Assembly: GCA_013151775.1 (NCBI GenBank)
Contig: JAADHO010000418.1
Span: 1 to 43,351 of the forward strand
From: Deltaproteobacteria bacterium
GTDB taxonomy: Bacteria; Myxococcota_A; Polyangia; Polyangiales; Houyiibacteriaceae
Length of the DNA: 43,351 nt
Direction: 5' to 3'
In this document: positions 26,169 to 28,525 of the stretch, piece after piece
Layout: each line of letters opens with the position of its first letter
Position numbering within the stretch: position 1 is the stretch's first letter
Notes under the pieces: model-generated
The model's input: the letters and a program-made list of their open reading frames with translations, nothing else
What the model was told of the DNA's origin: nothing
Database searches by the model: none
Made by a program: the position numbers and the translations under genes

Positions 26169-27461
26169 TCAGACTTGGCGCTGGCGCCTTCTTCTCCGAC
26201 ACCAGACCGCGCACAGCAAAGCGAGCCATGCTCCGGGCCCCTCTCCTCGATGGCCGCCGATGGCGCAACCGCCTGCGCCATCCGGACCCGTAGAGCCAGC
26301 GTCCACACGACCTCCGGAGTCGGAGTCGCCATCAGGCGTGCCCGCATCGGGCACCGTGGAGTCAGGCGAGTCGGGTGGCGTGGCGTCTGGAGCGCCAGCG
26401 TCTGACACTCGCGCGTCGTCCGCGCCCCCATCCACGATCGCTCCATCAACCCCTCCATCGTCGGTGCTCCCATCGCTCACGCTTCCATCAACCGTGCCTC
26501 CATCGACCGTCCCGCCATCGCTCACGCCTCCATCAATGGTGCCTCCGTCACCCACACCGCCGTCCGTTGTGGTGGGCACACAGGTAGCGCTCGGCGTGCT
26601 GGCGAGTGGGGTGCTCGCGCAGCTGCCCCAGCTCGCTCCGCTGCCTTCGAGGCTCACGGGGAAGCGACCGCAACCCAGACCAGGCGACCAGACGCCATCG
26701 GCGTCGTGGCAAGGGCTGACGTCGTAGGGCAGCACCGACTCGATGAAAGGCACGGCCATGGACGCCAATGCGTCGGTGTGATCACCACCGTCGCAACCTG
26801 AGCCGCCCTGCATGGAGTGGATGCCGAACACCCGCCAGGTGCCGTCATCGAGGCGGAGGAAATCGGGCCCCCCCGAATCTCCCGGACAGATGCCTTCTGC
26901 CGGCGTCGCACCGAATACGATCACCGAGCGGCGTGCGGCGAGCAGCATGCCAACGACTTCGCCATTGGCGGAGTGCTTCACTCCCGACCCGCCGCTTGGC
27001 GTGCGCCCGAAGCCGACGAGCACAGCGGCGGCGCCGGGCACGACTTGGTCCACCTCGCAGCCCATCACGATCGGCACCACAGGCAGATCGACCGCGACAG
27101 GCAGCTCACACACGGCGAAGTCGTAGTCTAGCCAGTCATAGCCTTCCCGGGCCGCAAAACGCGGATGCACGAAGCAGCGCGTGGGGGTCTGCCGGTCTGT
27201 GGACGAACCCGCGGAGCCAAAGGTGATGCGCACGATATCGGCACCACAATGCCCCGCGTAGAGCACGACTCGAGGCGCGACCAATACCCCCGAGCAGAGG
27301 CTCGTAGCGCTCCTCAACTCGACCACCGACGGATAGTCGCAGGCACCCGCAGCCACACCCCCAGCGATGGCCGCTGTCTGCGGCTGTACGTCGTCCACGT
27401 GAGCGGCGCAGGCCGTCAACGTCAGGAGCAAGACGGGAAGCATCCACTGGGTCAAGCGCAT
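26169..27461 (-). CDS. Secreted S1-family serine protease with low-complexity DGG linker and MYXO-CTERM-like tail
   Basis: Lipobox-like LTACAAH; triad motifs YAGHC, YDFAVC, CPGDSGGP; (V/T)DGG repeats; GGCAIGGHRGEGPGAWLALLCAVWCRRRRRQRQV. Confidence 0.86.
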   Translation of the reverse strand: MRLTQWMLPVLLLTLTACAAHVDDVQPQTAAIAGGVAAGACDYPSVVELRSATSLCSGVLVAPRVVLYAGHCGADIVRITFGSAGSSTDRQTPTRCFVHPRFAAREGYDWLDYDFAVCELPVAVDLPVVPIVMGCEVDQVVPGAAAVLVGFGRTPSGGSGVKHSANGEVVGMLLAARRSVIVFGATPAEGICPGDSGGPDFLRLDDGTWRVFGIHSMQGGSGCDGGDHTDALASMAVPFIESVLPYDVSPCHDADGVWSPGLGCGRFPVSLEGSGASWGSCASTPLASTPSATCVPTTTDGGVGDGGTIDGGVSDGGTVDGGTVDGSVSDGSTDDGGVDGAIVDGGADDARVSDAGAPDATPPDSPDSTVPDAGTPDGDSDSGGRVDAGSTGPDGAGGCAIGGHRGEGPGAWLALLCAVWCRRRRRQRQV

Positions 27462-27666
27462 GCTCGCTGTCAAGCCAGGACCATGCCATCGGTGAAGGCC
27501 CCTACACGGCGCGCCGATACAACATGCGCGCTACGCAGACAATGCAGAGCCAGAACCATCCTGCATATGCCACCAGACCACAGGTCAAGGAGTACACCAA
27601 GTCTCGAAGACACCGCGCGGTGCTATGGGGTGACGTAGAGGAGTGGTTGTACCACCGGGCGCTCGC

Positions 27667-27756
27667 CGAGATTTGGCCACGCATGCTGTCTAAGGTGGCC
27701 AAATCTCGATTGCGGAGAAAGATTTGGCCACCTATGCTGTCAAACGTGGCCAAATC
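27667..27756. repeat. Tandem pair of 36-bp inverted-repeat elements (51-bp spacing)
   Basis: 27670-27705 GATTTGGCCACgcATGCTGTCtaagGTGGCCAAATC and 27721-27756 GATTTGGCCACctATGCTGTCaaacGTGGCCAAATC; first copy arms extend to 14 bp (27667-27680/27695-27708). Confidence 0.93.
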
Positions 27757-28025
27757 GATCCAGCGCGCCCTCGGGATCGAGAATCTCGTGACCGACGCCG
27801 GCTCGTGGCGCCACATTCCGCGCAAGAAGTCGAGCAAGCGCGCTGGCGCGCAGGTCGACCTACTCTTCGATCGACGCGACGGCGTCATCAACCTCTGCGA
27901 GATGAAGTTCAGTGACCGCCCATACGTGGTCACCAAGGCCTACGCCCACGAGCTCGCTCAGAAGATCACGCTCTTCGAAGAGCACACCAAGACCAAGAAG
28001 CGCGTCGTCCTCACCTTGGTCGCGC
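27757..28025 (+). pseudogene. Remnant of AAA-family ATPase C-terminal PD-(D/E)XK-like domain
   Basis: IQRALGIENLVTDAGSWRHIPRKKSSKRAGAQVDLLFDRRDGVINLCEMKFSDRPYVVTKAYAHELAQKITLFEEHTKTKKRVVLTLV; no Walker motifs upstream; homology stops abruptly near 28020 although the ORF runs on antisense to the next gene. Confidence 0.72.
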
Positions 28026-28057
28026 CCGAGCCTGTCGCCACCCGAAGAGCGTCCACC

Positions 28058-28525
28058 CTAGGTCGGCTTGCGGAAGCGCACGACGAGCACCTTCACGGGG
28101 CTATCGAGCTGCTGCAGCGTCTCGCAGATCAACGCCTCCGCGCGGTCGGGCGAGAAGCCACCGGAACCGCTGCCGAGCAGCGGCGTGGCGAGGGAGCGAT
28201 AGCCGTGGCGCTCAGCCAGCTCGAGGGCGGACCGCGTGCAGTCCGTGATCGAGCGAGCAGAGGCGCGCCAGAGCATGTTGATGGCCGCGACGTGGATGAT
28301 GCCGGCGTAGGGCAGACGGCCGGCGGAGGTGTGGCGCGCCGTGCCCAAGGGTAAGGGCCGGTAGCCCAGCTCGCGGAAACACCCATAGCCAGCGCGTCGC
28401 TTGATGGCGCCGCTGACGCCCTGCGGAATCAGCAACCACCAGGGGATGATGTTGCGATTCCAGGCGTTGACGATGACGTCCACCGGCTGCTCGAGCAGAT
28501 CGCCCTCCACGACATCGAAGGTCAT
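28058..28525 (-). CDS. Macro-domain (ADP-ribose-binding) protein
   Basis: MTFDVVEGDLLEQPVDVIVNAWNRNIIPWW...GVSGAIKRRAG...ATPLLGSGSGGFSPDRA. Confidence 0.87.
   Translation of the reverse strand: MTFDVVEGDLLEQPVDVIVNAWNRNIIPWWLLIPQGVSGAIKRRAGYGCFRELGYRPLPLGTARHTSAGRLPYAGIIHVAAINMLWRASARSITDCTRSALELAERHGYRSLATPLLGSGSGGFSPDRAEALICETLQQLDSPVKVLVVRFRKPT

Follow-up and report, generated by a model that had tools for sequence, protein, structure and literature searches.

Palindromic arrays of four half-sites at the start of PDC-S27 genes, and a copy left upstream of a truncated gene

Described systems of a similar kind

Inverted repeats at the promoters of defence loci have been described in systems that bear on the locus reported here. 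In the AbiE type IV toxin-antitoxin/Abi system the locus is repressed by its own DNA-binding protein, AbiEi, which binds inverted repeats in its own promoter, in one case as two sets, and which is a precedent for autorepression (PMC7319586). BrxR repressors, which carry a WYL domain, control a phage-defence locus through inverted-repeat operators (PMC9122601). The likeness of AbiE to the genes studied here is one of regulation: AbiEi is a separate antitoxin protein, whereas the putative regulator of PDC-S27 is the ATPase-nuclease itself. BrxR, for its part, is the product of a stand-alone winged-helix/WYL regulator gene, and none was seen at PDC-S27 loci. Rickettsia palindromic elements (RPEs) and REP elements share with the palindromes of this study that they are palindromic and, in the window, protein-readable. 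Unlike them, the window palindromes are not dispersed, are not multi-copy and are tied to the promoter of one gene.

PDC-S27 is presented as a putative single-gene defence system, a fusion of an ATPase with a PD-(D/E)XK superfamily member, with about 8,000 reported occurrences in archaea and bacteria; the same source gives validation as pending for most of these defence candidates (PMC12988326). Our literature search found nothing relevant on PDC-S27 together with palindromes or promoters, and no mechanism for it, and no mention of an operator was seen in papers that name it. The variable-letter tandem operator that we propose for PDC-S27 appears to be undescribed in the literature searched.

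The palindromes and the truncated gene in the window

The window, which is the whole stretch of DNA analysed, comprises 43,351 nucleotides of contig JAADHO010000418.1 from a Deltaproteobacteria bacterium. The features relevant here are as follows.

27667 to 27708, no strand: distal palindrome (putative operator site 1), with 14-bp perfect arms CGAGATTTGGCCAC / GTGGCCAAATCTCG
27710 to 27715, forward strand: putative -35 hexamer TTGCGG, the best sigma70-like match but weak (3/6), with a 17-nt spacer
27721 to 27756, no strand: proximal palindrome (putative operator site 2), with 11-bp perfect arms
27733 to 27738, forward strand: putative -10 hexamer TATGCT, within the inner loop of the proximal palindrome
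27746 to 27748, forward strand: GTG, the likely (leaderless) start codon, in the 3' arm of the proximal palindrome
27746 to 28054, forward strand: truncated PDC-S27 gene, its start codon fused to a C-terminal PD-(D/E)XK-type domain (homology 27758 to 28033)

A pattern scan located 36-bp palindromes at 27670–27705 and 27721–27756, with 0 mismatches and an expected chance count of 0.00, the arms of the distal one lying at 27667–27680 and 27695–27708. The first-pass annotation had described two near-identical units 51 bp apart from start to start, with perfect arms of 14 and 11 bp, and this was confirmed by position. Its statement that both units stand in one frame was confirmed as well, the frame running on into IQRALGI. 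The proximal palindrome extends over the -10 box and transcription start, both putative, and over the likely start codon; the distal unit is probably not translated in the window, because the likely GTG start sits in the 3' arm of the proximal unit.

Apart from these two, the 6.05-Mb genome contained no copy of the palindromes, even when a shortened pattern was allowed 3 mismatches, and 4 of the 6 genome-wide GATTTGGCCAC sites are the arms of the two window palindromes. Among 184 genomes of the order, exact sites were seen in G000 and G093 only and one-mismatch sites in G042 and one stray place only, while two-mismatch counts were about those of a reversed-pattern control. The search for copies in the genome and its relatives that had been proposed at the outset thus led, within the order and apart from this stray, only to PDC-S27 genes. 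An exact scan of a wider genome contig collection, which may omit the source genome's own records, returned 0 copies.

The gene behind the palindromes had been taken for a coding remnant, and this description holds: it is a C-terminal piece of a PDC-S27 gene, matching the PADLOC PDC-S27 profile (E 2.1e-27) only at positions 363–455 of 474. It lacks the AAA domain, the winged helix and the extreme C-terminus, and is not a complete PDC-S27 gene with both ATPase and nuclease. Homology ends at about 28033, with the tail gone, and the junction to the C-terminal domain lies within a few bases of the end of the proximal palindrome, with homology to PDC-S27 loci on both sides of it. Both palindromes, the weak putative promoter and the GTG start are kept. 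A working nuclease from this fragment is unlikely, judging by its residues, because it has lost the W-x-G-x-x-F-E segment (W359, G361, F364, E365), which homologues keep without variation, although the later Q-x-D and E-x-K residues are present.

The fragment shares 66.7–68% identity with the G093 protein over 96 residues (G093 residues 399–494). By the same comparison the intact homologue in G042 is 59.4% identical to G093, so the window fragment (66.7%) is no more diverged. The deletion looks young relative to the divergence of these genes, or else the fragment may still be under selection, because its 96 remaining codons hold 0 stops, retain a coding pattern and show similarity at the level of an intact homologue. 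The domain was found in 0 of 34 other genomes searched of the window's family, an absence that fits horizontal acquisition followed by loss. The window palindromes would be the orphaned regulatory region of a truncated PDC-S27 gene, left without its presumed regulator. Immediately downstream a gene for a macro-domain protein (28058–28525, reverse strand; PF01661, E 3.6e-19) faces the truncated gene tail to tail, and a trypsin-like serine protease gene (26169–27473, reverse strand; PF00089, E 1.3e-16) is divergent from the palindrome array.

Palindrome arrays at intact PDC-S27 genes

In two related genomes the array stands directly upstream of an intact gene for an AAA ATPase, winged helix and PD-(D/E)XK protein, overlapping its start codon. 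In G093, of another family in the same order, two copies of the window arms surround a 14-nt loop at 51-bp spacing (one outer base differs in one copy), with an additional degenerate third copy, and an intact 517-aa AAA ATPase follows right behind; its C-terminal domain is homologous to the IQRALGI stretch of the window. In G042, where the protein is 63% identical to that of G093, two copies also lie 51 bp apart, and the second holds a GTG start codon inside its 3' arm. The distal window palindrome has its equivalent, at equal spacing, upstream of both intact genes. As the start codon sits in the arm in G042 and L019, V-A-K-S is the native N-terminus there. A single-protein search of the genome contig collection for related loci returned the G093 record alone, and an alignment search through the class of G366 gave 0 new homologues.

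We then compared 35 PDC-S27 upstream regions, the window included, from the order, other Myxococcota-type relatives, Bacteroidota, Bacillota and other plasmids, and proviral contigs. Inverted repeats were scored over the 130 bp that precede the GRxxE codon, with windows from the same loci as controls, and a strong tandem was defined as four half-sites scoring at least 20 of 24. Strong tandems were found in 21 of the 35 upstream regions, whereas control windows gave 1 in 137 and shuffles 5 in 875; about 14 regions, mostly of distant homologues, fell below the threshold. The best inverted repeat averaged 9.8 upstream and 6.1 in controls (p = 1.3e-14, among homologues that are related and not fully independent), and the best upstream repeats also scored far above shuffles.

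The spacing of the array was 51–56 bp across homologues, about five turns of B-DNA, with inner distances of 18–20 or 25–27 bp. With values of 52, 53, 55 and 56 bp among homologues it is often no multiple of three, and in some homologues (e.g. L020) a stop codon falls between the units. The arms vary among homologues (GATTTGGCC, GATTCCGCC, CTCGCC, CAGCC, TGGCC and others) with a GCC...GGC core usually kept; the copy in Wolbachia phage WO has a differently lettered pair (ACCGCGG), and that of a Rhodothermus plasmid a single ATTATACTC palindrome just ahead of the start codon. In L068 (G532:C21) the operator region consists of a 53-bp tandem duplication, near-exact, that holds several half-sites; together with the three units in G093 (L015) this suggests that operator copy number changes by duplication.

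A homologous GTG or ATG lies in the 3' arm in L018 (third unit), L019, L020, L022 and L066. A -10-like hexamer was seen in the proximal inner loop in fixed register in 6 of 6 short-class homologues, the window included, 2–3 nt after GCC and with the start codon 6–9 nt beyond it; for G093 the register was measured on the degenerate third unit, the one nearest the start. Long-class homologues had no single clear -10 position in common. The putative window promoter matches the consensus at 7 of 12 bases, which is weak, and a generic promoter scan flagged nothing at the site. By position, then, the inverted repeats overlap the start of the gene and its predicted promoter. A site covering a promoter, a transcription start and a leaderless start codon is a repressor arrangement, and the predicted elements would make this one, because the -10-like hexamer and the start codon both fall inside the proximal site.

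Seven intact homologues that carry the array (L015, L019, L023, L034, L037, L039 and L043) gave full-length matches to the PADLOC phage-defence candidate PDC-S27 (E 1.6e-158 to 1.1e-187), whereas the window copy is without ATPase and winged helix. The intact protein also matches Pfam ATPase_2, and MarR_2 at a sub-threshold level only. In an AlphaFold2 model of the intact protein (mean pLDDT 80, pTM 0.81) an AAA domain is followed by a winged helix at about 276–350 and by a C-terminal mixed alpha/beta domain. The winged helix, with helices at 302–309 and 315–326 and strands at 330–333 and 344–347 (pLDDT mostly 86–91), gives the intact product a predicted DNA-binding domain that the window copy is without. 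The best fold matches were the archaeal AAA ATPases 2qen (PABY2304; E 4e-10) and 2fna (SSO1545; E 4e-9), a likeness that spans the AAA part and the portion following it at only 15–18% identity; these proteins have about 350 residues, against 517 in intact PDC-S27.

PDC-S27 occurs on plasmids, where it is alone in annotated loci, and in proviruses. In L043, L044 and L091 the gene lies in proviral contigs and Wolbachia phage WO, annotated there as an archaeal ATPase fused to a C-terminal DUF234, and a pair of ACCGCGG palindromes at 56-bp spacing accompanies it. In L066 (G506:C905) a PDC-S27 gene with GATTCCGCC operators adjoins a phage-type integrase gene, consistent with mobility. The G506 genome holds three PDC-S27 genes, of which L062 and L066 clearly differ in operator letters.

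Proposed regulation of PDC-S27 genes

The reading that best explains these observations, to which we give a probability of roughly 0.68, is that the palindromes are a paired operator over the PDC-S27 promoter and start, probably self-repressed through the winged helix, and orphaned in the window by an internal deletion. The four half-sites would form two dimer sites, separated by about five helical turns, over promoter and start codon. Most likely the PDC-S27 protein would bind all four through its winged helix and repress its own transcription, covering the -10 box, the transcription start and the leaderless start codon, until a trigger alters its ATP-dependent state. Loss of about 370 internal codons in the window genome would have joined the start codon to the C-terminal nuclease fragment, leaving the operator without its regulator and a fragment that is probably non-functional. 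The analysis establishes how the sites are built, that they recur with this gene family, homology on either side of the junction and a winged helix in the modelled structure; from these features we infer promoter activity, the identity of the binder, repression and a function in defence. The first-pass annotation had offered a paired operator for a dimeric regulator as one of two possibilities, and in kind this is supported by the four-half-site array at PDC-S27 5' ends; so is the association with AAA-ATPase genes that it had asked about, in G093 and G042.

Its other possibility, that a repeat of the RPE (Rickettsia) or REP kind had entered a coding gene in frame, is the least probable of the readings weighed here and hardly tenable. 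Both window units do lie in one open frame, but recurrence was confined to the 5' ends of a single gene family and not, as that reading would have it, seen inside ORFs in one frame; the spacing often not divisible by three, the stop between units (L020), the differing arms and the G042 and G093 loci contradict it. RPEs are dispersed inside unrelated ORFs, and no such copies were found in the genome, exact copies across the order lying only at PDC-S27 genes; REP/BIME elements are multi-copy intergenic repeats, and no further copies were found. Two observations had been named beforehand as fatal to that idea, namely no other copies anywhere and the same residues native to intact AAA-ATPase homologues. 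The latter was made, an intact homologue (L019) having VAKS natively; the former was not, and copies do exist in relatives. RNA hairpins in a 5' leader that govern translation or termination are very improbable. As RNA the region folds well (-49.8 kcal/mol, z-score -6.1), but perfectly symmetric DNA at a fixed spacing accounts for this folding just as well, neither an Rfam match nor a poly-T tail was found at the site, and the putative short-class transcript would begin at or near the start codon and leave no leader.

The palindromes might also be recognition or parking sites for DNA processing (self-targeting, element mobility or cruciform sensing) instead of operators. Their long perfect arms might allow extrusion of a cruciform or hairpin, a nuclease-type domain is part of the protein, and the family occurs on plasmids, in proviruses and beside an integrase. 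We consider this improbable all the same, as the sites lie only 5', at a fixed distance from the start codon and overlapping promoter-like elements, and a non-systematic look saw no matching site on the 3' side.

The rival with most to be said for it, though unlikely, accepts operators of the PDC-S27 gene but has them bound by a separate host transcription factor and not by the ATPase. By eye, helix types go with half-sites (GGT with CAGCC, GGRF with TCCGCC, GGG(L/I)N with TTTGGCC, GGGAT with TCGCC), and a correlation reached only p = 0.046 on the first set. On a larger set with overall protein divergence controlled it was not significant, and L025 and L063 have nearly identical helices yet TCGCC and TAGCC, respectively. 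The tracking of recognition-helix types by half-sites is suggestive but does not amount to evidence of binding; covariation did not point specifically to the winged helix, and winged helices in AAA proteins can serve other DNA transactions. Against a shared host regulator, homologues from a single order already have different arms, and the sites are nowhere else in the tested genomes. Nor was a recurring regulator gene seen beside PDC-S27 among ORF picks that are crude in these GC-rich loci; a Pfam scan of the neighbouring ORFs was mostly uninformative, the longest stop-to-stop frames in GC-rich DNA often not being genes. The likeliest ligand would be the protein's own winged helix, since the gene is alone in annotated plasmid loci, the site is confined to this gene and the arm letters seem to follow the helix type.

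Going further, and only tentatively, PDC-S27 may be a self-repressing sensor-nuclease, an ATPase switch, nuclease and transcription factor in one, sitting on its own promoter. Its operators would co-diversify with the recognition helix, insulating copies from one another, and the promoter could serve as decoy or sensor. If this were true, an invader titrating PDC-S27 off the DNA would raise both expression and nuclease activity. The variable-letter, four-half-site operator proposed for PDC-S27 is a testable regulatory hypothesis and provides a DNA handle for binding assays, and the array may be used as a signature for finding both intact PDC-S27 genes and decayed remnants like that of the window.
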